From Cellulophaga lytica DSM 7489 (GTDB lineage Bacteria; Bacteroidota; Bacteroidia; Flavobacteriales; Flavobacteriaceae): DNA of 64,000 nt. Shown one piece after another: positions 11,198 through 38,801 of the stretch (position 1 is its first letter; every line of letters starts with the position of its first letter). The position numbers and the translations under genes are program-made. Under the pieces are notes generated by a model. That model ran no database searches and had not been told where the DNA came from. It was given only the letters and a program-made list of their open reading frames with translations. Location: positions 2,774,501-2,838,500 of the forward strand of contig NC_015167.1 in the NCBI RefSeq assembly GCF_000190595.1, given 5' to 3'.

Positions 11198-11218
11198 TCA
11201 CACTAAAAAAAGAATACA

Positions 11219-14720: not shown

Positions 14721-14752
14721 AGGCGTGGCAAAAGTTTTTTGTTGCGCCTTTT
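14721..14752. terminator. Bidirectional terminator between convergent genes
   Basis: AGGCG and CGCCT arms, extended through wobble pairs to CAAAA/TTTTG, form a hairpin with T-runs on both sides. It separates the phosphatase fusion (plus) from the sigma factor gene (minus), overlapping the latter's last bases. Confidence 0.7.
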
Positions 14753-15374
14753 AACTTTTAAAAAGCAGTACTCTTTTTAGTTTTAAGATAGAAAAATATA
14801 AAAATAAATTACTATCCTTTTTCTTATTAATCTTAGTACGTAAAATATAAAAAGCCTTAGTTATTTGGGCTTCTACTGTTTTTATAGAAATATTTAAATA
14901 CTCTGCAATTTCTATATTAGTTAACCCTTCTTGCTTGCTTAATAAAAAAACATTTTTACATTTAGGTGGTAAATTTTGTATTTCTTGTTTTACCTTTTTA
15001 ATAAGATTATCAAAGGAGACAACATCTGTTTCTTCTACCAAATGGTGTAAAGCATCTAAATACTTTTTTTCTAAAGGAAAAACATTTTTTTGTTTTCTAT
15101 AATGATCTATAAACTCATTATATACAGATTTATACAAAAAACTCTGTATAGAAAAATTGGCCTTTAGCTTGTCTCGCTTGCGCCAAACTCTCATAAAAAC
15201 ATTTTGCACAATATCTTCTGCCTCACTACGGTCATGTGTAAGGTTAAGCGCATAAACGCAAAGTTTCTGGTGGTAATCATTAACAAGCTTGTTGTATGCA
15301 GAAGTATTTCCAGACTTAAGTGCATTTATAAAATTAATGTCGCTATTTAATGGGGGACTCATATAAAAAGACAA
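14751..15374 (-). CDS. ECF RNA polymerase sigma-70 factor (FecI-like)
   Basis: The 207-residue protein has the two ECF sigma domains. Region 2 reads HDRSEAEDIVQNVFMRVWRK at about 50-70. Region 4 HTH reads LTNIEIAEYLNISIKTVEAQ at about 145-170. This Bacteroidetes branch pairs with FecR-type anti-sigma factors. The FecR gene is divergent, 98 bases away. A SusC with an STN domain follows that FecR, completing a FecI-FecR-FecA-type trans-envelope circuit. The sigma factor should direct transcription of the SusC/SusD pair, and possibly of the thioredoxin operon, when the receptor is occupied. An internal Met at residue 5 is an alternative start. Confidence 0.93.
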   Translation of the reverse strand: MSFYMSPPLNSDINFINALKSGNTSAYNKLVNDYHQKLCVYALNLTHDRSEAEDIVQNVFMRVWRKRDKLKANFSIQSFLYKSVYNEFIDHYRKQKNVFPLEKKYLDALHHLVEETDVVSFDNLIKKVKQEIQNLPPKCKNVFLLSKQEGLTNIEIAEYLNISIKTVEAQITKAFYILRTKINKKKDSNLFLYFSILKLKRVLLFKS

Positions 15375-15472
15375 TAATTGGTTAAATATGTTGCCAATAT
15401 ATAAAAAACTTTAATAAAATGTTAGGGTTAAGTAAAATGTATACGTATTAAAGTATATATGTTAAAAATATA

Positions 15473-16648
15473 ATGAAAAAGAAAATAACAAAATTAGATA
15501 AGTTAATAGCTAAGTACCTTACTAGAGAGTCTACTAAAAAAGAGCTCGATGGTTTAGAGGAGTTACTTAATAACGACTTAAATAATGAAAAGTTTCTAAA
15601 GGAATATATAAAAATAAATGTTGTATCAGATTATGTATTACAAAAGTTTAATACAGAAAAAGCAAGGCAACAATTGTTAGATACTATTAAAGAAGATAAA
15701 AAGAAAGCAAAGCAAGCTAAAATTTTTACTTTAATAAAATATTCCACAGCTGCAGCTGTAGCGGTACTTGTAATGTCTGGTATATTTTTTAAAACATCTT
15801 TATTTAATAAAACAGGAGCAGAGCCAGTACAAGTATCACATAATATAAAAGTGGGTTCTAATAAAGCAACTCTTTCTTTAGAAGATGGCTCTTTAGTAGT
15901 TTTAGAAAATGGTAAAGAGGTTAACGTTGGTAAAGCAAAAAGCAACGGTAAAGAACTTAAATATACAGCCGGCAGAAAAAAAGGTAAAACTATTTACAAC
16001 TCTTTAACTATACCGCGTGGTGGTGAATATGCATTGCAATTGTCTGACGGAACCAAGGTATGGTTAAATTCAGAAACAAAAATAAAGTATCCGGTATATT
16101 TTAAAAAAGGAATGTCTAGATCTGTAGAGTTGGTTTATGGCGAGGCTTATTTTGATGTTTCACCTAGTGAAAACCATAACGGAGACGGATTTAATGTTGT
16201 TACCAACCAACAAAACATTGCAGTTTTAGGAACCGAGTTTAATATTAAGGCTTATAAAAATGAAAACTTTATCTACTCTACCTTGGTAGAAGGTAGAATT
16301 ATGCTAGAAAACGGATCTTATAAAGCAGATATGCAGCCAGGGCAACAAGCAGTAATAGCAAATGGTATTGCTGAAAAAGTAGAAGTTTACAATGTTAATG
16401 TAGAAAATGAAATTGCTTGGCGAAAAGGTAATTTTAACTTTAAAAATAAATCATTAATAGAAATAACAAAAGTATTGTCTAGGTGGTATGATGTAGATTT
16501 TGTAATAGAAAATAAAGACCTAGAAAATATTAACTTTAAAGGAGTACTGGGTAAAACACAGGATATAGAAACAATTTTACAAATTATTAAAAACACAAGT
16601 AACATAAATGCCTATGAAATAAAAAATAGAATTATTTACATAAAATAA
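15473..16648 (+). CDS. FecR-family anti-sigma factor
   Basis: The 391-residue membrane protein has a short cytoplasmic sigma-binding N-terminus. One TM helix lies at about 84-105 (STAAAVAVLVMSGIFF). A periplasmic FecR domain follows, with PRGGEYALQLSDGTKVWLNS and GEAYFDV. The C-terminal DUF4974-like domain ends in FKGVLGKTQDIETILQIIKN and can contact the STN domain of the receptor. It is divergent from the sigma gene and 100 bases upstream of the STN-bearing SusC. The gene pair and receptor form a standard surface-signalling cascade. Confidence 0.94.
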   Translation: MKKKITKLDKLIAKYLTRESTKKELDGLEELLNNDLNNEKFLKEYIKINVVSDYVLQKFNTEKARQQLLDTIKEDKKKAKQAKIFTLIKYSTAAAVAVLVMSGIFFKTSLFNKTGAEPVQVSHNIKVGSNKATLSLEDGSLVVLENGKEVNVGKAKSNGKELKYTAGRKKGKTIYNSLTIPRGGEYALQLSDGTKVWLNSETKIKYPVYFKKGMSRSVELVYGEAYFDVSPSENHNGDGFNVVTNQQNIAVLGTEFNIKAYKNENFIYSTLVEGRIMLENGSYKADMQPGQQAVIANGIAEKVEVYNVNVENEIAWRKGNFNFKNKSLIEITKVLSRWYDVDFVIENKDLENINFKGVLGKTQDIETILQIIKNTSNINAYEIKNRIIYIK

Positions 16649-16748
16649 AGGGAACAAAGTTTATACCGTCCAAAGAATAACACTTTATCCCCCATTTTGT
16701 ATTGAATCTCGATTAATTAAGTAACTAACCAAAAAAACACTCAAATTT

Positions 16749-19700
16749 ATGAAAATTAAATTAATGAATGTTCTCTTCTGCTATAGAAGAAAACTAATGA
16801 TGAAGATTATGAAAGCTATTATCTTTTTATGGTGTACCACAATTTTTAGTTTTACCACTACAAATTCGTTCTCACAAAACGCTAAAATCAGTATTAAAGA
16901 AGATGCTGTTGTTAGTGTAGATATGGTTTTTGATATTATAATGGAACAAACCGACTATAAGTTTATTTATAGTGAAGGTTTTTTTGATGCTTATCCAAAA
17001 GTGGTGCTACATAAAGGTATCATAAAGGCTAATGCATTATTAGATAAAACACTAGAAAATAGTGATGTGTCTTATGAGTTTTTACCAAACAAAACAATAG
17101 TAATTGTAAAAAAGTCTAATAAAAAAAGAGCTTACCAATTGCAAATAAAAGGTAAGGTTGTAGATGAACTAGGTGTTCCTTTGTTAGGGATGAATGTCTA
17201 TGTTACCGATAGGAAACAAAATGGTTCAGACAATAAAAAAGACTTTTTAACAAGAGGAACCAGTACAGATTTTGACGGTAATTTTAAAATTATGGGAGAT
17301 GTAGGAAATTTTCTTTACGTTGGAGGTATTGGCTTTGAAACATATACAACAGAGATAGTTGAAGGAAAAACTAGTTATAATATAGTTTTAAAAGAGGCAA
17401 TTAGTAAATTAGATGAGGTTGTACTTGTTTCTACAGGTTACCAAAAAATTTCTAAAGAACGTGCTACTGGATCTTACGTAGGAGTGTCTAAAAAACAAAT
17501 AGAAAAACCATCAAGTAGTATTGCAGAAAGACTAACAGGTGTTGTTGCTGGTTTGCAAACAACTACCAATGCTGATGGTTCTATAGACATACAAATTAGA
17601 GGGCAATCATCATTAAGCGCTAATGCGCAACCTTTAATTGTTGTTGACGGTTTCCCAATAGACTCTGGCTTAGATACATTTGGAGATTTAGGAATTGTAA
17701 GTGGTAATACTCCTAATATTACCGGAGGTTTTGGTACAATTAACCCAAATGACGTAGAAAGTGTAACTGTATTAAAAGATGCCGCAGCAGCTTCTATTTG
17801 GGGGGCAAAAGCAGCAAATGGAGTTATTGTTATTACAACAAAAAAAGGAAAAAAAGGAAGAACAAACGTTTCTGTATCTTCTTTTGTGAGAGCTTCTAGT
17901 AAAATAGATTTAGATTATGCTTTAGCTAGAGCTAATAGCCAAGAGACTTTAGCTTATGAGCAAGCAGCGTTTGATACTAACTTTTTTGGCAGTATTTTAG
18001 GTAACCCTCCAGGAAATAGCCCAAGCACAAGTGATTTTGGTCCATATTCACAAGCTATTGTAGCTATGAATGAGGCAAGATTAGGCAGAATTTCTGACGC
18101 AGATAGAGACGCTACACTTAACTACCTCTCTTCTTTAGATAATAAAAAGCAAATTAGAGATAACCTTTTAAGTGCGCCTTTAATTACACAACACAATATT
18201 GCAATTAATGGCGGTACAGAAAAAATGTCTAACAGCTTATCATTAATGTATGAAGATAGCAAAACCTATTTTCAAGGAGACAAACAAACAAAATATCTTA
18301 TAAATTTTAAAAACAATACAAAATTAAGTAAGAGACTTAATTTTGAGTTTAGCGCTATGTTACAGCATAATGATATTGATACTAATTCTGGTCAGGCAGA
18401 TCCGTTATTTGGTACTGGAGGTATGTTAAACACTATAAAATCTTTAGCGCCATGGGATATGCTTAAAAATGAAGATGGCAGTTTAACAGATATGTCTTAT
18501 TTACATTATTACAGACCTAATGTAGATGCTTATGTACCTTTTAATAATTTTCCATACTCAGACTGGTCATATAACCCTATTACAGAAATTAATAACAGAA
18601 ATTTAAACACTAAGCAATTAAACGCAAGAATAAATGCAGGCTTAACTTTAGATTTAATTAAGGGGATGAAATTATCTTCTAGAATTCAATATGAAATTTT
18701 TAATTCTGAAGCAGAAAACTATTATAGTGACAAAACATTTGATGTTCGCCAATTTATTAACGAAACATCTGGACCTGAATGGAATTTTGGTGGTGTACCA
18801 ACACAATTAGTTCCTAAAGGCGGTATTTTAGAACAAGGTAGCAGCGAAATTAGATCGTATAATTTTAGAAATCAGTTAAGCTACAATCGTACTTTTGGTG
18901 ATAAGCATAATATAGATTTTATCGCTGGTACAGAAATGTCTAACAGGGTGTTTTCTACAACATCAAACCCAGCTGCCTTTGGTTATGCCCCAGATAAATT
19001 AACAACATCTCGTTTATTAGTTGATATAGAATCACACTCTTTATGGAATTTTTTCCCAGCACGGTTCAGTAGCTTTTTTTACAACTTTGATTTAGCTCCA
19101 GAACACTCATTTACAGAAAGAACAAATAGGTTCTTTTCTATGTATGGTAATTTAGCTTATACATACAATAACAAATATACTGTTTCGGGTAGTTACAGAA
19201 CAGATGCCGCAAATATAGTAGCTCCAGATCCCAAATTACGTTATGATCCTTTTTGGTCTGTTGGCTTAGGTTGGCATGTAGATAAAGAAGAATTTATGAA
19301 TAATGTTAATTGGGTAGACAGGTTATCACTTAGGGCAACATATGGTGCTGGAGGTAATATAATACCAAGTGCATCATTTATGCCACTAATTAATTTAAGT
19401 AATTCCTTAAATGATGTTACAAACCAAATAACAGCCAGTGTTACAGATCTTGGTAACCCACAACTAAGATGGGAAAAAACCTATAGCTGGAATTTAGGGG
19501 CAGATTTCTCTTTGTTTAACAGCAAATTAAATGGTGCTATAGATGTTTATAACAAGCAAGGTAAAGACTTAATAGTTAATCAAGGTTTAACATCTGTGTA
19601 TGGTACAACTAGCCAATTGTTAAACAGAGGCGAAATGGTGAATAAGGGGGTTGAAGTAAGTTTAGGTACCACACTACCAATAAATGGCAATGACATTGTT

Positions 19701-20456
19701 TGGTCTGGTAATTTAACGTTTTCTCATAATAAAAATGAAATTACAACTTTTGAAAGAGGTGTTTATACAGCATCAGATTTAACAGCTGGCCCAACAACCT
19801 CATACAGAGAAGGTTTTGATGCTAACACCTTATGGTCTTACCAATACGGCGGCATGTTTGATTTTGGTACTGGTACGCCAGAACCAACAGTAATAGGTGT
19901 AGATGGTGAACTAGCTCCATTAACCACATTTGTTAATGGAGATGCTAGAACTTTTATGGAGGCGCAAGGCACAACCAATGCACCAACCGTAGTTGGTTTT
20001 AGAAATTCATTTAAAATTCACGACTTTAACTTATCTTTTATTGTTACAGGTAAATTTGGCCATGTTTTTAGAAGACAAAGTTTTAATTACAATGCTGTTA
20101 CTGGTGGTAATACTAGTGTAAACGAAAAGTACAATGAAGTTACAAACGGAGACCCAAATAGCATTATACCTATACCAGAAATCTCATCTAGATATTTTTT
20201 CTATGACAGGTTTTACCCTTATATGAACTATTTAACTGAAAATGCAGACCATTTAAGGTTTCAAGAAGTTAACTTAACTTATAATTTACCTAATAAAGTA
20301 ATATCTAAATTAGGCTTAAATAGTTTAAGTTTTTATGCGCAAGCAAATAATGTTGGTGTGGTTTTATTTAATGATTTTGATGAAGACCCAGAGTTTCCAA
20401 AAGGCACTTTAAGGCCACAGGCTACTTTTACATTTGGTATGAATTTAAACTTTTAA
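16749..20456 (+). CDS. STN-domain SusC-type TonB-dependent outer-membrane receptor/transducer
   Basis: The 1235-residue receptor has an N-terminal signal peptide (ending SFSQ) and then a secretin/TonB short N-terminal (STN) domain at about 45-120. That domain is the hallmark of receptors signalling to FecR. A carboxypeptidase-regulatory-like domain is at about 130-215. The TonB box/plug start is LDEVVLVSTGYQKISKERAT, and the plug contains VLKDAAAASIWGAKAANG. The barrel ends in TFTFGMNLNF. Several in-frame Met codons precede the hydrophobic core, so the exact start is uncertain. It pairs with the SusD 11 bases downstream. Its position ahead of thioredoxin-like genes suggests a substrate needing thiol or metal handling, which is inference. 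Confidence 0.94.
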   Translation: MKIKLMNVLFCYRRKLMMKIMKAIIFLWCTTIFSFTTTNSFSQNAKISIKEDAVVSVDMVFDIIMEQTDYKFIYSEGFFDAYPKVVLHKGIIKANALLDKTLENSDVSYEFLPNKTIVIVKKSNKKRAYQLQIKGKVVDELGVPLLGMNVYVTDRKQNGSDNKKDFLTRGTSTDFDGNFKIMGDVGNFLYVGGIGFETYTTEIVEGKTSYNIVLKEAISKLDEVVLVSTGYQKISKERATGSYVGVSKKQIEKPSSSIAERLTGVVAGLQTTTNADGSIDIQIRGQSSLSANAQPLIVVDGFPIDSGLDTFGDLGIVSGNTPNITGGFGTINPNDVESVTVLKDAAAASIWGAKAANGVIVITTKKGKKGRTNVSVSSFVRASSKIDLDYALARANSQETLAYEQAAFDTNFFGSILGNPPGNSPSTSDFGPYSQAIVAMNEARLGRISDADRDATLNYLSSLDNKKQIRDNLLSAPLITQHNIAINGGTEKMSNSLSLMYEDSKTYFQGDKQTKYLINFKNNTKLSKRLNFEFSAMLQHNDIDTNSGQADPLFGTGGMLNTIKSLAPWDMLKNEDGSLTDMSYLHYYRPNVDAYVPFNNFPYSDWSYNPITEINNRNLNTKQLNARINAGLTLDLIKGMKLSSRIQYEIFNSEAENYYSDKTFDVRQFINETSGPEWNFGGVPTQLVPKGGILEQGSSEIRSYNFRNQLSYNRTFGDKHNIDFIAGTEMSNRVFSTTSNPAAFGYAPDKLTTSRLLVDIESHSLWNFFPARFSSFFYNFDLAPEHSFTERTNRFFSMYGNLAYTYNNKYTVSGSYRTDAANIVAPDPKLRYDPFWSVGLGWHVDKEEFMNNVNWVDRLSLRATYGAGGNIIPSASFMPLINLSNSLNDVTNQITASVTDLGNPQLRWEKTYSWNLGADFSLFNSKLNGAIDVYNKQGKDLIVNQGLTSVYGTTSQLLNRGEMVNKGVEVSLGTTLPINGNDIVWSGNLTFSHNKNEITTFERGVYTASDLTAGPTTSYREGFDANTLWSYQYGGMFDFGTGTPEPTVIGVDGELAPLTTFVNGDARTFMEAQGTTNAPTVVGFRNSFKIHDFNLSFIVTGKFGHVFRRQSFNYNAVTGGNTSVNEKYNEVTNGDPNSIIPIPEISSRYFFYDRFYPYMNYLTENADHLRFQEVNLTYNLPNKVISKLGLNSLSFYAQANNVGVVLFNDFDEDPEFPKGTLRPQATFTFGMNLNF

Positions 20457-20467
20457 ACTAAAACATT

Positions 20468-22003
20468 ATGAAAAAAACATATAAATATATAGCAATTTTA
20501 CTACTAATAACAGCTTTTAGTAGCTGTGATGATTTTTTAGAAGAAAATCCTTCTAAAAACGATTCGGTAACACCAGAATCTTTAGAAGATTTTGAAGCTT
20601 TATTAAATAACTACAATGAATTTTCAGATGAAGCTATTTTTCCTTTAATCTATGGTTCAGATGATTTTGAGTTAAGCACAAATATGCATGATAATTTTAA
20701 TAGAGCGTATTCTCCTGCTAGTGCTATATTTGGTACTTGGAACACAGAGTTAGCAGCCAATGAATCTGGCAGATTTTCTGGTTGGCCAGCAGAGTGGGAA
20801 AAAATATTTACAGCCAATTATATTTTAGAACAAATTGACGCTGTGACTGCCTCTGAAGAAGAAAAAGCCAATATAAAAGCCGAATGTTATTTTATTAGAG
20901 CTTACAGTTATTTTGTTTTGGCAAATGTTTATTGCTTGCCTTATTCTACTACTAATTTAGATGAATTAGGCTTACCAATAAAACAAACAACAAGTTTTAG
21001 TGAAAGTACAGCCAGAGTTAGTCTAGGCGAAACTTATGATTTTATAGAGTCAAACTTAATGAATGCTTTAAAAATCACAAGAGAATTTAGCCAAGTTAAT
21101 GGTTTAAATAACTCTTGGCGTGCAAGCACTGCTGCAGTTAATGGTTTTGCAGCAAGGTATTATTTGGCATTAAATGAATATGCTTTGGCACAAGATTATG
21201 CACAAAATGCACTAGATGAGTATAGTAATTTAAGAAATTACAATACAGATATGCGTTTTTCTGATATACCAGCTTTTGCAACTATATTTAATCCTGCCCC
21301 AGAGCGTGTTGAGTTGTTGTATCCTTATACACACGATCAACAAAATGTAGCAGAAGATAGGCTTGAATTTGGAGAAGCCTATTATTACAGAATGTTATCA
21401 AACCCATCTTGGGCAAACTGGCCATCACAAGAATTACTTAATCTTTATGATGATGAGTATGATTTAAGGTATAGATATCACATAGTTGAAGATTATTCAT
21501 ATTCACGTGGTGCCATTGCACCGCCATTTAGTTATCCTGGTTATATATTCTTTTTTAAAGATGATATTCCAAGTGGGCCTTCTGTACCAGAAATGCTATT
21601 AATTAAAGCAGAATGCAAAATTAGGCAAGGCGCTTGGGCAGACGGGTTACAAACAGCAAACCTACTAAGAGCTGCCAGAATGGATGCCACAGCACCTGTA
21701 GATGCAATAGAACTTAGCGCGTTAAATCAAAACGAAGCCTTAAGAAAAGTTTTAGAAGAGCGTAGAAGAGAAATGCCTTTTGTGCATAGGTGGTATGATA
21801 TTAGACGCTACAATAATAATGATGACGCATCTGATGATGTAATCTTGTCTAGAACATTCTATCCATTTAACTCAAGTGCTATTAATGGTGGCGAAGCGCC
21901 AATAACAACAACACTTGATGTAAAATCTAGAAAATATGCTTTTCCAATTCCAAATGAAGAAATTTTAATTTCTAACGGAGAGCTAGAACAAAATCAGTAT
22001 TAG
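20468..22003 (+). CDS. SusD/RagB-family surface lipoprotein
   Basis: The 511-residue SusD-like protein has lipobox FSSC followed by acidic DDFLEE, matching the surface-export pattern. The helical core has AECYFIRAYSYFVLANVY at about 138-155. The C-terminal motif is VLEERRREMPFVHRWYDIRR followed by YAFPIPNEEI. It should cap the preceding SusC channel. The gene ends nine bases before a hairpin terminator, so SusC/SusD form a unit separate from the thioredoxin operon. Confidence 0.93.
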   Translation: MKKTYKYIAILLLITAFSSCDDFLEENPSKNDSVTPESLEDFEALLNNYNEFSDEAIFPLIYGSDDFELSTNMHDNFNRAYSPASAIFGTWNTELAANESGRFSGWPAEWEKIFTANYILEQIDAVTASEEEKANIKAECYFIRAYSYFVLANVYCLPYSTTNLDELGLPIKQTTSFSESTARVSLGETYDFIESNLMNALKITREFSQVNGLNNSWRASTAAVNGFAARYYLALNEYALAQDYAQNALDEYSNLRNYNTDMRFSDIPAFATIFNPAPERVELLYPYTHDQQNVAEDRLEFGEAYYYRMLSNPSWANWPSQELLNLYDDEYDLRYRYHIVEDYSYSRGAIAPPFSYPGYIFFFKDDIPSGPSVPEMLLIKAECKIRQGAWADGLQTANLLRAARMDATAPVDAIELSALNQNEALRKVLEERRREMPFVHRWYDIRRYNNNDDASDDVILSRTFYPFNSSAINGGEAPITTTLDVKSRKYAFPIPNEEILISNGELEQNQY

Positions 22004-22011
22004 TTATTTTT

Positions 22012-22046
22012 TTAAACAAGGCTTATAATATTTAAGCCTTGTTTTT
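22012..22046 (+). terminator. Rho-independent terminator after the STN-SusC/SusD pair
   Basis: AAACAAGGCTTA and TAAGCCTTGTTT form a long stem around a short AT loop, followed by T residues. It separates the SusC/SusD unit from the downstream thioredoxin operon. Confidence 0.88.
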
Positions 22047-22068
22047 CCTATAAACTATTCTTAAACCA

Positions 22069-22095
22069 TTAGTTAATAAACATATCATTAACTAA
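22069..22095. promoter_or_regulatory. Inverted repeat upstream of the thioredoxin-like operon
   Basis: TTAGTTAAT (22069-22077) and ATTAACTAA (22087-22095) form a perfect 9-base inverted repeat with a 9-base spacer. It lies 70 bases before the first gene of the seven-gene operon. Centre-to-centre spacing is that of a dimeric regulator site, though AT-richness makes chance possible. Confidence 0.3.
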
Positions 22096-22164
22096 AAAAT
22101 AAGGGTTGCATAGTTTAAAAATCTTCATATATAAAAACACAAAACACTATTTAAAAATTACAGT

Positions 22165-23547
22165 ATGGGAAAATTAAAATTTATTACCATAGCTTTTTCA
22201 ATTGCTATGCTTTGGGCTTGTAAAAAAGAAACTCCTGTTAACTATGCTTTATTTTCCGGAAATATTAGCAATACCAAAGGAGGTGAACTTAAAGTAAGCT
22301 CGTTAAATGGTTTTTCAAAAACAATTAATGTGAAAGATACAGGCATATTTTCTGATACTCTTTTTATTGAAGAAAATGGTGTATACAATGTACGCTTTGG
22401 CAATTTAAGATTTGCTGCATATGTAACACAAGGTGCTAACATTAATATTGAAGCTAATAAAAAAGAAAATATTAAAAGTTTAAAATTTTCAGGAGATTAT
22501 GCAGACTTAAATAATTACTTTATTTATAAAGAATCTAAGAACTTAGATTTTATAATGGATAGAGAAGGGAGTTATAATGTAGACGAATCTACTTTTGAAA
22601 CCAAAGTATTGAACTTTCAAAAGGATTTAGAAAACCGTCTTACTTCGCTAAAAGATATTCCAGAAAACATTAACGAAAATGAGTTAAGAGCAATTAACTA
22701 TGGAAGATTAGCTAAAAAATCTGAGTACGAAAAAATGTATGGATACCTTTCTAAAAATAAAGATTTTAAAGCTTCAGAAACATTCAAAAAAGAGTTAAAC
22801 GAAATATCTTTTGATAACGCAGAAGATTATCTGTACTCATCAGATTACCAAGCAATGGTTAGTGCAAATATTAGAAAAAAAGCCTTTGATTACTACCAAA
22901 AAGATTCTATACCATACAGTGATGCTAGTGCCAAAGCAGTATCTGAAATAAGTAACCCAATTATTAAAAATGCCGAGTTATATAAAGCTATTTTAATGCG
23001 TTTACCAATGTCAAAAGATAAAGACAAAGATCTTCAAGACTTTTTAAATGCATCAACAAGCCAAAAACACATTAAAAAAATAAAAGAATTATACGAGTCT
23101 CTAAAAGTTTTAGATAAAGGGCAACCATCTCCTAAGTTTCATAATTATGAAAATTATGCAGGTGGCACAACTTCTTTAGATGATTTAAAAGGCAAATACG
23201 TTTACATTGATGTGTGGGCAACTTGGTGCGGGCCTTGTAAATACGAAATTCCATTCTTAAAAAAAATAGAAGAGCAATACCAAGGTAAAAACATTCATTT
23301 TGTAAGCATTTCTACAGATAAACAAAAAGACAAAGATAAATGGAAAGCTATGGTTGCCGATAAAGAAATGGGGGGTATACAGTTAATTACAGATAACGAT
23401 TTTAACACTTCTTTTGTATCTGATTATAAAATTATGGGTATTCCTCAATTTATACTATTAGACCCTAATGGTAATATTGTACAAGCCAATGCTCCAAGAC
23501 CTTCAGATGAAAAACTAGTAGAATTATTTAATTCTCTAAATATATAA
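22165..23547 (+). CDS. TlpA-like thioredoxin-fold lipoprotein (first gene of the redox operon)
   Basis: The 460-residue lipoprotein has its lipobox Cys at residue 19 (LWAC), followed by KKE rather than acidic residues, so it probably faces the periplasm. A beta-rich N-terminal domain (about 25-110) resembles DUF4369. A long helical middle (about 115-315) comes next, then a TlpA/AhpC-TSA thioredoxin fold with WATWCGPC at 352-358 (Cys355 and Cys358) and a cis-Pro loop in IMGIPQF. Such proteins reduce or exchange disulfides in the envelope. It opens a seven-gene operon with very short gaps. The partner protein is not identifiable from sequence. Confidence 0.9.
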   Translation: MGKLKFITIAFSIAMLWACKKETPVNYALFSGNISNTKGGELKVSSLNGFSKTINVKDTGIFSDTLFIEENGVYNVRFGNLRFAAYVTQGANINIEANKKENIKSLKFSGDYADLNNYFIYKESKNLDFIMDREGSYNVDESTFETKVLNFQKDLENRLTSLKDIPENINENELRAINYGRLAKKSEYEKMYGYLSKNKDFKASETFKKELNEISFDNAEDYLYSSDYQAMVSANIRKKAFDYYQKDSIPYSDASAKAVSEISNPIIKNAELYKAILMRLPMSKDKDKDLQDFLNASTSQKHIKKIKELYESLKVLDKGQPSPKFHNYENYAGGTTSLDDLKGKYVYIDVWATWCGPCKYEIPFLKKIEEQYQGKNIHFVSISTDKQKDKDKWKAMVADKEMGGIQLITDNDFNTSFVSDYKIMGIPQFILLDPNGNIVQANAPRPSDEKLVELFNSLNI

Positions 23548-23549
23548 TT

Positions 23550-24752
23550 ATGAAAAAAAGTATTTTAATATGCTTAGTGGCTGCTATATTTTTTGCATGT
23601 AAAAACAAGCCAAATGCACAAGAAACTAGTACTGGTTACACTATTACAGGTACCATTAAAGGCTTAAGTTCTGGTACAGTAAAAATTGTAGAAGAAGGAA
23701 ATAGAGACCGCTCTAAGTTAAAAACAATAAATAGTACAGAAATAGCTAATGGTGAATTTAAACTTACAGGAAAAGTAGAACACCCAGATATGGTTAGCTT
23801 AGTTATAAATGATAAAAGTAGTAGTTTCTTTTTAGAAAATAGTCCAATAGAAATAACTATAAATTGGTCTGATGGAAAAGAAAACGATTGGCGATTCAAT
23901 TCTACAGTTTCTGGTTCTAAAACACATGATGAGTACACAAAAATAGATCAGGAAGCAAAAGCTGTTTTTAAAGACCCTAAGTATAAGGTTTTAGACTCTC
24001 TTAGAAATTTGGTTATTGCAGCTAAAAAAAGCAAAAATCAAAAAGATATGGATAAAGTATCGGCTCTTCAAAAAGAACTAAGACCATTAATGTTAGAACA
24101 AAGTGAAAGATATACCAGCACTAAGTTTAATTATGCAAAAGCCAATCCTAGTTCTCCTGTTGCTGTACATATTTTAGGGTTTCAGTATTCTGAAGGCAGA
24201 ATGAGTAAAGATCAACTAAAAGAATATTACAATTTATTTACAGGTGATGCCCGTAAAACATCATTTTTTAAAAACTATATTACAAAGGTTTATAAAGATA
24301 ATTTTGAAAACTTAGGTGTTGGTAATACAGCACCAGATTTTACACTTAAAAATTTAGAAAACAATAACCTTACTTTATCTAAAATAAATGCCAAATATAA
24401 ATTGGTAGATTTTTGGGCAAGCTGGTGTGTGCCATGTAGAAATTCTTTCCCTCATTTAAAAGAATTAAGAAAAGAATATAAAAATGATGGTTTTGAAATT
24501 ATTGGTATAGGTACTGCAGATGTTGAAGAAAAATGGCGTAAAGCTATTAAAGAAGACCAAACGCCGTGGTTGCATGTATTTGATACTTCACCTGTAAAAA
24601 ATGGAAGAGCATCCTATGGAGCAATAGCAAAAGCTTATGGCGTTCCTCATTTACCAACTACATTTTTAGTAGATGCTAATAACACTATTGTATTAAGAAA
24701 CCCAACCAAAGAAGAGTTAGATGCTAAACTTAAAGAGCTATTTGGTCATTAA
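23550..24752 (+). CDS. TlpA-like thioredoxin lipoprotein with DUF4369-like N-terminus
   Basis: The 400-residue lipoprotein (lipobox FFAC, Cys17, then KNK) starts two bases after the preceding stop. Residues about 30-125 form a DUF4369-like beta domain (YTITGTIKGLSSGTV). A helical linker follows, then a TlpA thioredoxin domain with WASWCVPC and catalytic cysteines 293 and 296. The cis-Pro segment is GVPHLPTTF. It is a close paralogue of the next gene: both have VPC in the active site, share a QTPWLHVFD stretch, and have near-identical C-termini (RNPTKEELD). Likely envelope disulfide reductase activity is a family inference. Confidence 0.92.
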   Translation: MKKSILICLVAAIFFACKNKPNAQETSTGYTITGTIKGLSSGTVKIVEEGNRDRSKLKTINSTEIANGEFKLTGKVEHPDMVSLVINDKSSSFFLENSPIEITINWSDGKENDWRFNSTVSGSKTHDEYTKIDQEAKAVFKDPKYKVLDSLRNLVIAAKKSKNQKDMDKVSALQKELRPLMLEQSERYTSTKFNYAKANPSSPVAVHILGFQYSEGRMSKDQLKEYYNLFTGDARKTSFFKNYITKVYKDNFENLGVGNTAPDFTLKNLENNNLTLSKINAKYKLVDFWASWCVPCRNSFPHLKELRKEYKNDGFEIIGIGTADVEEKWRKAIKEDQTPWLHVFDTSPVKNGRASYGAIAKAYGVPHLPTTFLVDANNTIVLRNPTKEELDAKLKELFGH

Positions 24753-24767
24753 TAAAGTAGTAGAATT

Positions 24768-25970
24768 ATGAAACGCACTATATTAAAATTATCGGGATTA
24801 CTGCTTATTAGTTGTCTGTTTTGTATTAGTTGTAAAACCAATAATGCACCAAACGGATATACAATTACAGGTAATGTTAAAGGAGCAGAAGATGGTACTT
24901 GGGTAAAACTTAAAAGCACACCATCTTTATTTACAGACCCTTTAATTACTATTGATAGTACTACAATTACTAATGGCACATTTAAGTTTACTGGTAAAGT
25001 GGCTAATGTAGATATGGTAGGTGTACATATTGGCACAAAAACTAGCGCATATTTTTATCTAGAAAACAGTAAAATTACCATTGATATAGATGTATTAAGT
25101 TCTGAAGCTACAAGTGGATACAATGCTGCCAAAGTAACAGGATCTATAACTCAAGATTTTTACAAGCTACAATTACAAAAAATGGATAGCATTAAAAACC
25201 AAGATAAATACGGTGCTTTTAAAGGGTTTAGAGAAATGGTTATGGCCGCAAAACAGTCTAAAGACGCTGCTTTAATGAATAAAGTAAAGCAAAAAATGGA
25301 AGCTTTAGAGCCCTTAGAAAAACAGCAACAGGAAGAGCTTAAGACGTTTAAAACAAACTTTGTAAAAAACAACCCTACATCACCAATTGGACCTAAAATA
25401 ATGGGGGTTTCATTTAGTGAAATTATGATGTCTAGAGAAGAAATGAAAACAGTATACAACCTTTTTAAAGGTGATGCTGTAAAGTCTAGTGCTTTTAATT
25501 TCATTAAAAAAACCTATGAAGATTATGTAGAAAAGTTTGTTGCAGGTGCTACGGCTCCAGATTTTACCTTAAAAACAGTATCTGGAGATGACTTAACCCT
25601 ATCTAATGTTAAGGCTAAATATATATTAGTAGATTTTTGGGCTAGCTGGTGCGTACCTTGCAGAGCTTCTTTTCCTAAGTTAAAAAAAGTTTATAACACC
25701 TATAAAGGTGAAGGTTTTGAGGTTGTAGGTGTAGCTACTGGTGATAAAGACAAAAATTGGAGAGATGCCATACAAAAAGACCAAACGCCTTGGTTGCATG
25801 TTTTTGATGTAAATAAAAAATCTATAGGAAGAAATGGAGATGTAGCTGATGCCTATGGCGTTCCTTTTTTACCAACTACTTATTTACTAGATAGTAACCT
25901 AAAAATTATACTTAGAAACCCTACAAAGGAAGAATTAGATACAAAACTTAAAGAATTATTTAAGTCTTAA
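24768..25970 (+). CDS. TlpA-like thioredoxin lipoprotein, tandem paralogue of the preceding gene
   Basis: The 400-residue lipoprotein has the lipobox ending CISC (Cys22), followed by KTN. It has the same order as its neighbour: DUF4369-like beta domain about 35-130, helical linker 140-240, TlpA domain with WASWCVPC and cysteines 295 and 298. The shared QTPWLHVFD and RNPTKEELD segments and identical length point to tandem duplication. Retention of both copies with intact active sites suggests distinct partners. It lies 15 bases after the previous stop, within the operon. Confidence 0.92.
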   Translation: MKRTILKLSGLLLISCLFCISCKTNNAPNGYTITGNVKGAEDGTWVKLKSTPSLFTDPLITIDSTTITNGTFKFTGKVANVDMVGVHIGTKTSAYFYLENSKITIDIDVLSSEATSGYNAAKVTGSITQDFYKLQLQKMDSIKNQDKYGAFKGFREMVMAAKQSKDAALMNKVKQKMEALEPLEKQQQEELKTFKTNFVKNNPTSPIGPKIMGVSFSEIMMSREEMKTVYNLFKGDAVKSSAFNFIKKTYEDYVEKFVAGATAPDFTLKTVSGDDLTLSNVKAKYILVDFWASWCVPCRASFPKLKKVYNTYKGEGFEVVGVATGDKDKNWRDAIQKDQTPWLHVFDVNKKSIGRNGDVADAYGVPFLPTTYLLDSNLKIILRNPTKEELDTKLKELFKS

Positions 25971-25989
25971 AAAATTAACAATATATACT

Positions 25990-27174
25990 ATGAAAAAAAT
26001 ACACAAAATACTATTTGTTTGCTTTATAGCGCTTATAAGCTTTAATAAAAACAACGCTCAAAATAAGGATAATACTTTTACAATTACAGGTGAGATTAAG
26101 GGCTTAAAAGGAAATTTATATTTTAGGCATCCAGATAAAGAGTATACCAGAACAACACCTTCAGATTCTATTATAGTTACTAATGGTAAATTTAAATTAA
26201 CAACAAACGTTTCTAAAGTTGCTTTAATAAGGGTGTTTCCTAAGTTTAGTGGTCCAGATAAAAAACTATCAAAAATACCAAAAGGAGGTAGAGGTTATAT
26301 TCCTGTAAAAAGTGGCACTATTATGGTATATGCATCGCCAGGTGCAAATATCACAATTAAAGGTGAAGCAAAAGATTATTTTGATGCCTACCCAAGCGGT
26401 GATGCTTTTAATGATGGTTTAGCTAAAGTTAACAAACTTATGTACCCAATGTATAATGAGATGGGTAATTTAGCAGTAGAAAGCACCTACACTGATGATA
26501 AAGCTAAAAAAGAAGAGATTAATAAAAAGTCAGAAGCTATTTCTAAAAAATCTATAGATGCTCTAGTTAATCATTTAAAAAATAACCCTAATGCTTTAGC
26601 TTCTGCTTGGTATTTAAACGATTTAATGTTGCGTACCCAAGTTACTAATGAGCAAGCAGAAGAACTATTTAGCGTATTATCTACAGATTTAGCTGCTTAT
26701 AAAGATTATAAAGATGTTGCAACAAGAGTACAGGGTATTAAAGAAACTGCAGATGGTTCTCCTGTACCAAGCATAAAAACCAATGCAACTTTAAATGGTG
26801 AAATTTTTGACATTAACAGCCTAAAAGGTAAGTATGTTCTTATAGATTTTTGGGGTATTTGGTGTGGTCCTTGCGTTGCAGAAATGCCTGAAGTAAAAGA
26901 GTTTCAAGAAAAACATAAAGATAATTTAGTAGTTGTTGGTATTAACTCTGGAGATACAAAAGAAAAAATAGAAGCCTTTGTAAATAAAAATAATTACGGT
27001 TGGATGCAATTAATGAGTGATAAGAAAAATACACCAGACAATTTTGTAAACAGGTTTAACGTACAAGGGTTTCCTACGAAGTTTATAATAGACAGAAGAG
27101 GAAAAATAATTAAAAGATTTGTTGGTAGCGGAGAAGAAGCCTTTAAAATGCTTGAAGAGTTACTTAAAAGCTAA
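25990..27174 (+). CDS. Periplasmic TlpA-like thioredoxin protein
   Basis: The 394-residue protein has an ordinary signal peptide ending NNAQ, without a lipobox, so it is probably soluble. The DUF4369-like domain begins FTITGEIKGLKGNLYF. The C-terminal TlpA domain carries FWGIWCGPC with cysteines 292 and 295, then VAEMPEV and a cis-Pro loop GFPTKFIID. It resembles the operon's last gene (29184-30380), which shares GPCVAEMP, VVGxNSGDTK and GFPTKFIID. The operon therefore carries two thioredoxin subtypes, VPC-type and GPCVAEMP-type. Confidence 0.91.
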   Translation: MKKIHKILFVCFIALISFNKNNAQNKDNTFTITGEIKGLKGNLYFRHPDKEYTRTTPSDSIIVTNGKFKLTTNVSKVALIRVFPKFSGPDKKLSKIPKGGRGYIPVKSGTIMVYASPGANITIKGEAKDYFDAYPSGDAFNDGLAKVNKLMYPMYNEMGNLAVESTYTDDKAKKEEINKKSEAISKKSIDALVNHLKNNPNALASAWYLNDLMLRTQVTNEQAEELFSVLSTDLAAYKDYKDVATRVQGIKETADGSPVPSIKTNATLNGEIFDINSLKGKYVLIDFWGIWCGPCVAEMPEVKEFQEKHKDNLVVVGINSGDTKEKIEAFVNKNNYGWMQLMSDKKNTPDNFVNRFNVQGFPTKFIIDRRGKIIKRFVGSGEEAFKMLEELLKS

Positions 27175-27189
27175 TTAATAACAAAAATT

Positions 27190-27678
27190 ATGCGTATAAA
27201 ACATTTTATGGTATTTATAGCTTTTGTTGCTATTAACTGCACAATTGTTGCACAAACCACAGGTAATGAGTTTGATGCGCCTACACCTGTAGATCCTGTG
27301 AAAGTTAATGCAAGTATTGTTTCTACAGAAGATCCTACGGTTAAAACTTTAATTTTTAATGCAACAATTTTAGAGGGCTACCATATTTATGCCTATGTAT
27401 CTCCAAAAGATCCATACATACAATCTAAAATAGAATTAAAACTTCCTGAGGGTGTTACTAGTATAGGTGAACTTCAAACCCCAACTATTAAGGCTTATCC
27501 AGGAAAAGGAGAGTTATATGTGTATACTGGTAAAATACAGTTTAAGCAATCAATAAAAATAGAGGCTAATTACTACAACAATAATGTTATAAAGTGTGGT
27601 TTGTTTTACCAAACCTGTAATGCCAATATTTGTTTACCACCTACACAAAAAGACGTTTTATTAACTATAAAAAATTAA
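27190..27678 (+). CDS. DsbD N-terminal-like (nDsbD/DsbD-alpha) secreted protein
   Basis: The 162-residue protein has a signal peptide ending VAQ and then an immunoglobulin-like domain resembling the N-terminal domain of DsbD. The motif YQTCNANICLPP (Cys143 and Cys148) corresponds to the active disulfide region of that domain, where family members read YQGC...C.PP. A further Cys lies at 136. In DsbD this domain passes electrons from the membrane core to periplasmic acceptors. Here it is a stand-alone protein with no DsbD transmembrane core in the operon. It sits between two thioredoxin-like genes, which supports a redox-relay role. Confidence 0.82.
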   Translation: MRIKHFMVFIAFVAINCTIVAQTTGNEFDAPTPVDPVKVNASIVSTEDPTVKTLIFNATILEGYHIYAYVSPKDPYIQSKIELKLPEGVTSIGELQTPTIKAYPGKGELYVYTGKIQFKQSIKIEANYYNNNVIKCGLFYQTCNANICLPPTQKDVLLTIKN

Positions 27679-27681
27679 GGA

Positions 27682-29178
27682 ATGAAAAATTCACTACATA
27701 AAATTTTGCTTATCATTATTATGATAGCTTTAGTACCTACAGGCTATAGTCAAACACAAAAGTCTAATTTAAAAATATTGTATGTAGGTACAAACCCAGA
27801 CAAACCATTAACAGATAGAGAAAAAAGAATAACAAATAATCTAGAGCGCAAAGTTGCATTACGAAAATCTAGAACTAACGATTTTAAAAATTTTATTGGC
27901 CAATATTTTAATTCTGTTACAGTAGTATATGGTGATGAATTTAAAGAAGAAATGGCATCTGATTATGATGTTACCATTATTGATGCGTACTTAAAACATT
28001 TTGAAGGAGGCTATACAAAAGATAAAAATGGCAAAGTAACAGGCTATACAACCAGAAAGTTTTTAACAGAAAACTATAACGCTGCAACAATAATGATTGG
28101 GGAACCATCTGCATATATTGGAGAAGGAAGAGATTTAAAAATTGACCATTTATGTTTATGTTTAGATGCTCATGCTCATGCTCATGGTATGAAATTAGAT
28201 CATCCTATTTTTAACACACCTAACAAAGTAAGTGTAGCCTATGAGACCATAGAAACACCTGCTAACTACAAGGCAAGATATGGAGGAAGAAATTTAGCTA
28301 AAACAATGCAAATGTGGCGAGTACAAACCGAAGGATATACCGAAGGAAAAGGAATGCCTGTAGGTTTAGTTTCTACAGGTTACGCTTTTGATAATGGTAT
28401 AGATGCCGAATGGATTTCTGGAGGTAATAATTCTAAAGGTGTAGAAGCTACAGCTATTGGGCGTCATGCAAATTTTTTACATTGGGGTTTTGCTGCAGCA
28501 CCAGAATATTTAACAGAGAGTGCTAAACTAGCTTTTATAAATGCTATTCACTATATAGCACCTTTTAAAGGAACAAAGCAGATTACTAAAAAAATAAAAA
28601 GAATGCCTTTAAGAGAATATCTTAGAGAAAGCCAATGGACGGTTTCTGATGAAGGTTCTGCTGCATGGTTGCATTATGTTAACAAAGACCTAGATAAAAG
28701 AAGGGAAAACAAAGCAAAACTACAAGAAAAGAAAGATGCTGGAGAAGAACTCTCGCAACTAGAAAATATGATGTTAAGAATGCCTATAGAAAAACATACA
28801 AGAATTTGGACTATTAGGCATGAGCCACAAAAGTTAAAGGACAAGTTTGGTGAAAATTGGGCTATGTATGAGAATTATTATATAGAAAATATGGATTATT
28901 TTTACCCAATTCCTAATGAAAGATACACATATTGGAGTGATGTAGATGAAGATGCAAAATCTCTTGGTATAGCAAATAATGATATTAAATTACTAGATAA
29001 AGCAATAACAATGCTTAAGGATAAGAGTAAAAAAGAAATGGCTTACCGTTTGTTGTTAAGGTACACTAAGCAAGATTTTAAAACAGACAAAGAGTGGATT
29101 AAATGGTTTAAGAAAAACCGTAAAAGCCTTTACTTTTCTGAAGGTGATGGTTATAAGTTTATTGTTTTACCTAATTAG
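27682..29178 (+). CDS. Secreted ThuA/glutamine-amidotransferase-fold-like protein with a Cys/His/Met cluster
   Basis: The 498-residue protein has a signal peptide (ending GYSQ). Residues about 30-295 look like a ThuA-like or class I amidotransferase-type fold: ILYVGTN start, DYDVTIIDAY, a VGLVSTGYAFDNG stretch and a GRHANFLHWGF segment. Within it, residues 156-174 read HLCLCLDAHAHAHGMKLDH, combining two Cys, five His and one Met. That is a plausible metal site. The C-terminal 200 residues are helical and charged, with no family I recognise. The gene starts three bases after the DsbD-like gene and ends five bases before another thioredoxin gene. Enzymatic role is unknown; the fold call is tentative. 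Confidence 0.6.
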   Translation: MKNSLHKILLIIIMIALVPTGYSQTQKSNLKILYVGTNPDKPLTDREKRITNNLERKVALRKSRTNDFKNFIGQYFNSVTVVYGDEFKEEMASDYDVTIIDAYLKHFEGGYTKDKNGKVTGYTTRKFLTENYNAATIMIGEPSAYIGEGRDLKIDHLCLCLDAHAHAHGMKLDHPIFNTPNKVSVAYETIETPANYKARYGGRNLAKTMQMWRVQTEGYTEGKGMPVGLVSTGYAFDNGIDAEWISGGNNSKGVEATAIGRHANFLHWGFAAAPEYLTESAKLAFINAIHYIAPFKGTKQITKKIKRMPLREYLRESQWTVSDEGSAAWLHYVNKDLDKRRENKAKLQEKKDAGEELSQLENMMLRMPIEKHTRIWTIRHEPQKLKDKFGENWAMYENYYIENMDYFYPIPNERYTYWSDVDEDAKSLGIANNDIKLLDKAITMLKDKSKKEMAYRLLLRYTKQDFKTDKEWIKWFKKNRKSLYFSEGDGYKFIVLPN

Positions 29179-29183
29179 AAAAA

Positions 29184-30380
29184 ATGAAAAAAATAACACT
29201 ACTCATTGTAACTACTATACTGGTATTGTCATGCAAAGATAATACAGTTAAAAAAGAAACTATTCCTGCAGATACTTTTAAGGTATTTGGAACTCTAAAA
29301 GGTTTAGATGTACCTTATATTTTTATAGATTACACGCATGATGTTACTGGAGATAGAGTGTGGGATACTATTAAAGTGAAAAATGAACATTTCTCATACA
29401 ATGCAAAAATAAAAAATACCAAAAGAGTTGCTATTTGGCCTATGCTAAATAGTAAAGAGGAAATGGGTAAAAACGGAAAAGTTGAATTTTTAGTAAGGCC
29501 AGGAGACGCTATTGAATATAAAGGAGAGGTTACAGAAACATTTGATGCCATACCAACAGGTACAAGTTTGTGTGATGATATAAATACTTTTAACAAGAGC
29601 ACAGAGCAGCTTAATAAAAAGGCTTCTAAAATAATGGGAAATATAAGAGCTTTAACGCTTAAATTAATTAAAGAAGAATCTTATCATCCATCACAAGGAA
29701 TGCACCCTAAAGTACAAGTAAAGTATGATTCTTTAAAGACAATTGGAGAAGAAATAGCAGTTATAAAAAAGAATTTTGTTAAAGAGCGCCCTAAGTCAGA
29801 AGTTGCAGCTTATTATTTATCAAAAATGGTTACTTTAAAAGAGATACCAGATAATGATGCTTTAACTTTATTAAATGCCTTTGATAATACTGTTAAAACA
29901 AGTCCATTTTATATAGATGTGGCTACACGTTTAAAAGGATCAGAAACTACAAAATCTGGAAATGTGGTTCCGGAGTTGGTAAGTAATAGAACACTTGATG
30001 GTAAAGAGTTTAATTTAAAATCGTTAAGAGGTAAGTACGTTTTAATTGATTTTTGGGGAACTTGGTGTGGCCCTTGTGTTGCCGAAATGCCAAAAGTTAA
30101 AGAATATAGCGAAACGTATAAAGATAACTTGGTAATTGTTGGTGTAAACAGTGGAGATACAAAACAACGTATTATAGATTTTGTTACGCCTAAAGGTTAC
30201 AATTGGGTACAGTTATTATCTAAAAAAGGAGTAAACGATGATAATTTTGTTTCAAAATTTAATATATCAGGATTTCCTACAAAGTTTATTATAGACCCCA
30301 ACGGAATAATTATTGAAAAATACATAGGAGGATCTGAAGAGGCCTTTGAAAAATTAGATGAAATTTTAAAAGACAGCTAA
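29184..30380 (+). CDS. TlpA-like thioredoxin lipoprotein (last gene of the redox operon)
   Basis: The 398-residue lipoprotein has lipobox LSC (Cys17) followed by KDN. The N-terminal domain (FKVFGTLKGLDVPYIFI) is DUF4369-like. A helical middle precedes a TlpA domain with FWGTWCGPC (cysteines 295 and 298), VAEMPKV and the GFPTKFIID cis-Pro loop. It is the closest relative of the 25990-27174 protein but is lipid-anchored, so the two may act at different sites. A strong terminator begins 12 bases after its stop and closes the operon. Confidence 0.91.
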   Translation: MKKITLLIVTTILVLSCKDNTVKKETIPADTFKVFGTLKGLDVPYIFIDYTHDVTGDRVWDTIKVKNEHFSYNAKIKNTKRVAIWPMLNSKEEMGKNGKVEFLVRPGDAIEYKGEVTETFDAIPTGTSLCDDINTFNKSTEQLNKKASKIMGNIRALTLKLIKEESYHPSQGMHPKVQVKYDSLKTIGEEIAVIKKNFVKERPKSEVAAYYLSKMVTLKEIPDNDALTLLNAFDNTVKTSPFYIDVATRLKGSETTKSGNVVPELVSNRTLDGKEFNLKSLRGKYVLIDFWGTWCGPCVAEMPKVKEYSETYKDNLVIVGVNSGDTKQRIIDFVTPKGYNWVQLLSKKGVNDDNFVSKFNISGFPTKFIIDPNGIIIEKYIGGSEEAFEKLDEILKDS

Positions 30381-30392
30381 TTTATAAGAAAA

Positions 30393-30420
30393 AAAAAGCC
30401 ACCATTATGGTGGCTTTTTT
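30393..30420 (+). terminator. Rho-independent terminator closing the thioredoxin operon
   Basis: AAGCCACC and GGTGGCTT form the stem around ATTAT, with an A-run before and T-run after. It is a classical intrinsic terminator directly downstream of the last thioredoxin-like gene. Confidence 0.93.
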
Positions 30421-30471
30421 AGTAAAGTAGGTTTACTTAACCATAATTTTCTTCAGTTTCTAATGAGGTAG

Positions 30472-33794: not shown

Positions 33795-33803
33795 TATTAT
33801 ATT

Positions 33804-37079: not shown

Positions 37080-37115
37080 TAATTTAAGTGTTAGTTAATA
37101 ATACTTGAAAATTTA

Positions 37116-37147
37116 GCCGTAGTTGTTGGTAGCAACTGCGGTTTTTT
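37116..37147 (-). terminator. Hairpin between fecR and susC, possible attenuator
   Basis: CCGTAGTTG and CAACTGCGG pair with one mismatch in the 70-base gap between the FecR stop and the SusC start. On the minus strand the trailing sequence (CTAAATTTT) is only weakly U-rich. It may partly terminate transcription or act as an mRNA processing/stability element that sets different FecR and SusC levels. Confidence 0.5.
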
Positions 37148-37149
37148 CT

Positions 37150-38076: not shown

Positions 38077-38172
38077 AAACTTGTTTTATATAGGTAAGTA
38101 CCCAAAACAAGTAATTAGTACTATTGGCAAATGTTACCAAAAGTTTAAGCAAACATTAAGTGAAATGTTTTT

Positions 38173-38685: not shown

Positions 38686-38801
38686 AGGGACTAAAAAATT
38701 CTGGAATTAGTTATGGTAAATTAAAGACCCTAAAGTTTAAAATTGATTATGCAAACGTTATCTTTAAATTAACTTTTTAAAACAGACTGTAAACCTTAAG
38801 G

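Follow-up and report, generated by a model that had tools for sequence, protein, structure and literature searches.

A SusC/SusD uptake locus of Cellulophaga lytica with an envelope thioredoxin array, a free-standing nDsbD and a CxC protein family

Gene content of the locus

We analyzed a 64,000-nucleotide stretch of the genome of the marine bacterium Cellulophaga lytica DSM 7489 (the window; positions 2,774,501 to 2,838,500 of a single 3,765,936-base contig) that contains a SusC/SusD (SusCD) uptake locus joined to an array of TlpA-type thioredoxin genes. The unit studied here occupies window positions 14751 to 30420, between terminator-like hairpins at 14721 to 14749 and 30392 to 30420. A sigma factor gene lies on the minus strand, and the plus strand carries, in order, fecR, susC, susD, tlpA1 to tlpA4, a gene for a free-standing DsbD N-terminal domain (nDsbD), a gene for a 498-amino-acid (aa) protein, and tlpA5, as follows:

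14721 to 14749, plus strand: terminator-like hairpin forming the left border, with the phosphatase gene upstream of it and the convergent sigma gene on its other side
14751 to 15374, minus strand: extracytoplasmic function (ECF) sigma factor (TIGR02985, Sig70_bacteroi1), divergent from fecR
15473 to 16648, plus strand: FecR anti-sigma factor by family match, grouping with the Cellulophaga rows in a tree
16749 to 20456, plus strand: SusC/RagA TonB-dependent transporter with an N-terminal signaling end (weak STN), by Pfam and NCBIfam
17150 to 17450, plus strand: putative recombination switch in susC (residues ∼135 to 235), with the resident signaling end to the left and an apparently foreign plug and barrel to the right
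20468 to 22003, plus strand: SusD-like protein by Pfam, with a lipobox cysteine (by eye)
22014 to 22044, plus strand: stable hairpin followed by a U-rich stretch at the junction of SusD and the thioredoxin array, a putative attenuator or processing site
22165 to 23547, plus strand: TlpA1, lipobox cysteine (by eye), WCGPC, no DUF4369 match
23550 to 24752, plus strand: TlpA2, lipobox cysteine (by eye), DUF4369 and WCVPC
24768 to 25970, plus strand: TlpA3, lipobox cysteine (by eye), DUF4369 and WCVPC
25990 to 27174, plus strand: TlpA4, no lipobox seen, DUF4369 and WCGPC
27190 to 27678, plus strand: free-standing nDsbD (Pfam DsbD_N), cysteine pair C143/C148
27682 to 29178, plus strand: 498-aa protein whose family has no model, with C158 and C160 (CxC) as its sole cysteines and invariant H174 and H262
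29184 to 30380, plus strand: TlpA5, lipobox cysteine (by eye), WCGPC, borderline DUF4369
30392 to 30420: palindromic terminator-like hairpin from a pattern scan, closing the unit

The left-border hairpin has a 13-pair stem and was judged real from its stem and position; the terminator-pattern scan of the region found 6 candidates against 6.7 expected by shuffling, i.e., no excess. Open reading frames (ORFs) and Pfam and NCBIfam matches confirmed the ECF sigma factor, FecR, SusC, SusD, five TlpA-type thioredoxins, and stand-alone DsbD_N where an earlier model reading of the letters alone (the sequence-only reading) had placed them. That reading had also described all genes as codirectional with gaps of 2 to 20 bases. 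The direction is shared from fecR through tlpA5, but the sigma gene (15374 to 14751) is on the minus strand, divergent from fecR, and therefore not every gene is codirectional. Similarly, short gaps (2 to 19 bp) are found inside the thioredoxin array but not between fecR and susC (100 bp) or susD and tlpA1 (161 bp).

The window SusC matches the SusC/RagA model TIGR04056 over its full length (584.6 bits; cutoff, 368.25) and the signature model TIGR04057 (56.5 bits; cutoff, 46.2), while SusD exceeds the cutoffs of SusD-like_3 (91.7 bits versus 27) and SusD_RagB (45.6 bits versus 23.1). Of the fused STN-SusC protein described earlier, the SusC part stands; the STN domain is below the Pfam threshold in the window SusC (E = 0.064) and reaches an E value of 0.0035 in the sister species. 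All five array thioredoxins are of the TlpA/ResA type, with a thioredoxin-like domain, a WCGPC or WCVPC motif, and an export signal (by eye), and none of the five reaches an NCBIfam cutoff. Across the genome (3.77 Mb; E up to 0.01) there are seven DUF4369 matches, four of them inside this array, and the cluster is therefore not due to chance.

The window nDsbD scores 41.5 bits against DsbD_N (Pfam cutoff, 25), and its C143/C148 align with the cysteine pair of the Escherichia coli DsbD N-domain (the profile match to DsbD in the Protein Data Bank [PDB] is weak; E = 0.029). It is not a DsbD: at 162 aa it consists of DsbD_N only, without the membrane domain and the C-terminal thioredoxin. A full-length DsbD is encoded elsewhere in the window genome.

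Family matches revealed no gene for a glycoside hydrolase, sulfatase, or peptidase in 14751 to 30380, as the sequence-only reading had also found; the 498-aa protein matches no family and could be an enzyme. Pfam revealed no carbohydrate-active enzyme, the mark of a polysaccharide utilization locus, among the 11 genes between the two terminators. By its predicted gene content, the locus is of the SusCD nutrient type, with one added family that has no model.

A protein family with an invariant CxC motif

The 498-aa protein had no Pfam or NCBIfam match at an E value of 0.001 and just weak, unrelated matches at looser limits; ten relatives likewise gave only scattered weak family matches (best E = 0.0079). 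Full-length genes of this kind (CxC genes) lie in 11 loci (the window locus, L009 to L012, and L040 to L045) from 10 genomes and 7 genera. Left out of this set were G693 (internal stop, SusC broken), G543 (partial, with a masked stretch), and G480 (45 residues), all from the family search, and G401 (a fragment with a stop) from the genus search. C158, C160, H174, and H262 are invariant across the 11 members, and histidines at 166 and 168 are semiconserved. Seven members have exactly C158 and C160 as cysteines, two add one within the first 23 residues only, and those of L010 and L044 have a further cysteine. Neither Pfam nor NCBIfam has a model for this family, whose two invariant cysteines form one CxC motif.

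The label ThuA-like, given to this protein by the sequence-only reading, is not borne out, as neither Pfam nor NCBIfam yielded a ThuA (PF06283) match in any of the 11 members. The comparison with ThuA by hhalign was likewise negative (probability, 2.5 to 2.9%), with ThuA profiles that comprised one or two sequences. A PDB sequence search with the 498-aa protein gave one chance-level match (E = 0.73), the 11-row profile gave none, and an AlphaFold2 model from a two-row alignment had a pLDDT of 38, too low to support a comparison of folds.

The gene is rare. Within the genus it was found in 5 of 18 genomes, including one fragment (G401) and one genome with two copies, and a five-row profile detected it in 10 of 397 genomes of the family, three of them partial or marginal. 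In the phylum sample, a single-sequence search (E up to 1e−10) found it in the window genome alone (1 of 395), and the 11-row profile found it in 3 of 395, two of which were marginal (E about 5e−4, 20 bits) and treated as chance. The five genomes of the genus that carry the CxC gene (a fragment in one) are also the 5 of 18 that encode a window-type SusD (E up to 1e−30).

Conservation of gene order

The nDsbD gene directly adjoins the CxC gene in all 11 loci, coming first in five and second in six, and its cysteine pair is invariant throughout. FecR, SusC, SusD, and at least one TlpA-type gene are present in the same direction in 10 of the 11 loci, from six genera (the SusD of L012, L043, L044, and L045 was assigned by Pfam, and susC of L011, from G406, reads as two frames). 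A divergent sigma gene occurs in nine of these ten SusCD-bearing loci; the L040 stretch stops before the sigma position. The sequence-only reading had coupled SusC/SusD to the thioredoxin array and had named conserved synteny beforehand as the check on that coupling, which holds in these 10 loci.

The number of TlpA genes per locus ranges from 1 to 5. L041 consists of TlpA1-nDsbD-CxC, with no SusCD within the fetched 20 kb, and L012 and L043 add a small separate thioredoxin that matches Thioredoxin_7, as does the C-terminal part of the window-genome DsbD. The G401 locus (L013) retains SusCD and three TlpA genes but has only a fragment of the CxC gene, and no ORF for nDsbD was evident there. 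Because the G401 CxC gene is fragmentary and the G406 susC is in two frames (L011:2996-6607), the locus seems to decay in some species. The sister species (L009) carries two TlpA4-type copies (L009:10109-11344 and L009:13793-14983; 70% and 86% identical to the window TlpA4), which suggests that array members were duplicated or converted there.

Mosaic origin of the locus

Compared with the sister species G399, the sigma factor, FecR, and SusC residues 1 to 120 are 92 to 97% identical; from residue 121 onward, 60-residue blocks of SusC fall to 43 to 77% (one block, 90%), and SusD is 58% identical. With G610, a genome of another genus, the identities cross: FecR is 46% and SusC residues 1 to 240 are 37 to 55% identical, and every SusC block from residue 241 is 81 to 100% and SusD 83% identical. 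DNA identity crosses over at about 17,150 to 17,450, inside susC. In 100-base bins to the left of the switch, 73 to 100 bases match G399 and 41 to 71 match G610, and to the right G610 is closer in every bin, its DNA match reaching 79.8% over 17,367 to 24,753. From about 24,100 to 29,156 (TlpA3, TlpA4, nDsbD, and CxC), G610 and G399 each share about 80% identity with the window, and it is therefore the receptor and first thioredoxins that the exchange affects. Neither genome has a close counterpart of TlpA5.

The five Cellulophaga rows group together in the FecR tree (support, 100/100). In the SusD tree, the window joins G610 (100/99) and a Cellulophaga clade is rejected (P = 0.002), the clade test having been chosen after the identities were known and the tree having long branches (G406b, G570, and G401). 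The SusC of G406, in two frames, was excluded from the SusC comparison. Aldehyde dehydrogenase, used as a background marker, is 81 to 90% identical inside the genus, but its match in G610 (46%) is not clearly orthologous. Foreign origin is therefore argued from the crossing identities in the locus and not from a genome-wide background. By these comparisons the locus is a mosaic, in which the sigma factor, FecR, and the SusC signaling end appear resident and the SusC barrel, SusD, TlpA1, and TlpA2 match another genus. This suggests that the receptor half was exchanged between species. The replacement itself is seen in the sequence, and it would alter specificity.

Hairpin between SusD and the thioredoxin array

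In the window, a 57-base stretch of the susD-tlpA1 gap folds at −15.5 kcal/mol (z = −6.2). A hairpin is found at this junction in all seven loci that were folded (z = −2.2 to −6.2; 0 to 6 of 200 shuffles fold as well); five of the seven intergenic stretches were folded in part only, and L012, L043, L044, and L045 lie outside this set. Because of the hairpin, the array may be expressed at a lower level than SusCD or separately from it.

Peptidases and DsbD beside related loci

An M16 peptidase gene lies beside the module in 3 of the 11 loci, namely, L044, L045, and L043 (in the last, after the small thioredoxin). S9 peptidases lie near L041 and L044. In L071, from another genome of the same family, the order is sigma-FecR-SusC-SusD-TlpA-TlpA-M16-DsbD, with sigma divergent. 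At ∼2.955 to 2.962 Mb, the window genome itself has consecutive genes for an M16 peptidase, a TlpA1 paralogue (41% identity), a full DsbD, and a further nDsbD. Since this M16 peptidase shares 54% identity with the L044 enzyme and about 20% with the L043 enzyme, two M16 subfamilies are involved. When the L043 peptidase was searched for in 120 genomes of the family, matches were found in 10. The one close match (68%, G480) is followed by nDsbD, DsbD, and TlpA. None of the reference DsbD or TlpA genes occurs in the fetched 5.7- to 20-kb stretches around the nine remote matches (30 to 33%), where we found just a weak SusC-like match (L119) and a second M16 (L121).

Proposed function and alternatives

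On the strength of the linkage to peptidases and DsbD, we give roughly even chances to the reading that the ligand of this SusC/SusD uptake locus is a peptide or small protein with disulfide bonds, which would be imported, reduced, and proteolyzed by way of an envelope reducing relay. The disulfide- or thiol-bearing ligand proposed by the sequence-only reading remains the best candidate, and the M16 peptidases of the relatives (3 of 11 loci) point to a peptide or protein.

In such a relay, as is known for these families, SusD would capture the ligand and SusC import it. Ligand binding would be communicated from the SusC signaling end by way of FecR to the divergent sigma factor, turning the locus on. 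Judging by their WCxxC sites, the four TlpA proteins with a lipobox and the one without may reduce disulfides in the ligand or keep partner proteins reduced. The free nDsbD, which has no membrane part of its own, would be recharged by the full-length DsbD encoded elsewhere and would pass electrons on, most likely to its constant neighbor, the CxC protein. The opened chain could then be cut by a periplasmic M16-type peptidase, whose linkage is observed and whose role is presumed. A change of receptor specificity would come from exchange of the SusC barrel and SusD along with the first thioredoxins, the sigma factor, FecR, and the SusC signaling end being kept.

Several results weigh against this explanation. 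The window locus has no peptidase by family match, an adjacent M16 is absent from 7 of the 10 SusCD-bearing loci (the L042 stretch stops just past the module), and L071 came from the DUF4369 search itself. Around DUF4369 genes in five other genomes, SusC/SusD is nearby in 1 of 11 stretches (L071), and these TlpA proteins are therefore often apart from SusCD. In a PDB search, the nearest SusC sequences are 8ypu, 8ypt, 8aa4, and 5t3r, and the peptide importer RagA ranks lower. These four entries, of which 8ypt and 8ypu are the nearest solved SusC/SusD entries, are not known as peptide importers, and some are glycan importers; the sequence therefore does not say peptide.

Uptake of a glycan or glycoconjugate, with the thioredoxins only keeping exported partner proteins folded, seems to us unlikely. 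SusCD pairs are mostly glycan importers, and several of the nearest solved SusC proteins would be of this kind, but no carbohydrate-active enzyme is found in the locus by family match. The window SusC has just two cysteines, both within the first 29 residues, yet SusD has three besides the lipobox cysteine. Furthermore, the TlpA number varies while the nDsbD-CxC pair is constant, which also speaks against partner folding in glycan uptake.

Acquisition of a metal (copper or iron), in which SusCD would import a metal complex and the thioredoxins and the CxC/His protein would reduce and bind the metal, is quite improbable. TlpA proteins elsewhere mature copper sites, and the four invariant residues of the CxC protein could form a metal site together with its semiconserved histidines. 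Beyond this Cys/His set, nothing positive was found for the copper or metal alternative of the sequence-only reading: no known metal-handling domain occurs among the genes scanned, and some relatives are accompanied by peptidases, not metal proteins. The iron tables of PMC10434189, as far as they are covered by the part of that source used here, contain a single TlpA gene, from Prevotella, a single DUF4369 gene, from Bacteroides (1.6-fold), and no SusCD-TlpA locus. Envelope defense, with the array repairing oxidized envelope proteins and SusCD an incidental neighbor, is similarly improbable. In its favor, the junction hairpin would allow different expression, L041 has the module without SusCD, and TlpA domains match Msr and thiol peroxidase models weakly. 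Against it, those matches are all far below the curated NCBIfam cutoffs, and SusCD is kept with the array in all but one locus.

For the CxC protein, a role as reductase partner of nDsbD is preferred, with a metal site as the alternative. A more speculative and somewhat doubtful proposal is that it is the first of a new group of thiol oxidoreductases (or enzymes that depend on a reductant) in the envelope, its single CxC center being served by the free nDsbD in a two-protein electron branch from DsbD dedicated to the ligands of exchangeable SusCD pairs.

Comparison with known systems and neighboring genes

The sequence-only reading knew of no described system with this composition, and none was recognizable in a literature search, in which subscription journals were thinly covered. 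For RagAB of Porphyromonas gingivalis, PMC11817032 describes several receptor-pair alleles and strong conservation of the N-terminal part of ragA, and horizontal transfer is proposed. The likeness lies in the SusC/SusD architecture, in peptide uptake (on the RagAB side), and in allelic receptor exchange; no thioredoxin array, nDsbD, or CxC protein is mentioned for RagAB in the portion of PMC11817032 consulted. In the window, moreover, the exchanged part begins within susC and extends across SusD and on into two TlpA genes. The locus resembles sigma/FecR-regulated SusCD polysaccharide utilization loci in its sigma factor, FecR, SusC signaling end, and SusD, but instead of a carbohydrate-active enzyme (none by family match), it has seven envelope redox or family-less genes. 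The L071 operon shares the divergent sigma, FecR, SusCD, and DUF4369 TlpA proteins but includes an M16 peptidase and full DsbD, and no CxC gene or free nDsbD was seen there. With the DsbD relay, the window nDsbD shares the aligned cysteine pair, whereas it stands free of the membrane and C-terminal domains.

Upstream, directly after a SusC/SusD pair (8126 to 12805, by reading), a gene at 12886 to 14691 joins a GDPD_2 glycerophosphodiesterase-type end to an alkaline phosphatase domain in one protein and may serve organic-phosphate use. Downstream, on the minus strand (32028 to 40715), FecR and a sigma-like gene (the latter by reading) accompany a second SusC/SusD pair, which is followed by a calcineurin-like phosphoesterase. 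The single polypeptide encoded at 42011 to 44788 (minus strand) is a hybrid regulator that unites a sensor of the periplasmic-binding-protein type with histidine kinase, receiver, and AraC domains. A GH3 family match at 45969 to 47492, which we take to be of the auxin-conjugating enzyme type, lies near three tRNA genes.

Implications

Many SusCD importers have neither carbohydrate enzymes nor an assigned ligand. The locus ties such an importer to a putative disulfide-reducing relay, with peptidases beside some relatives, and would thereby offer a concrete ligand class. The constant nDsbD-CxC pair may represent an undescribed electron branch in the envelope. Finally, the switch inside susC illustrates how replacement of a receptor can spare the end that communicates with its own regulators.

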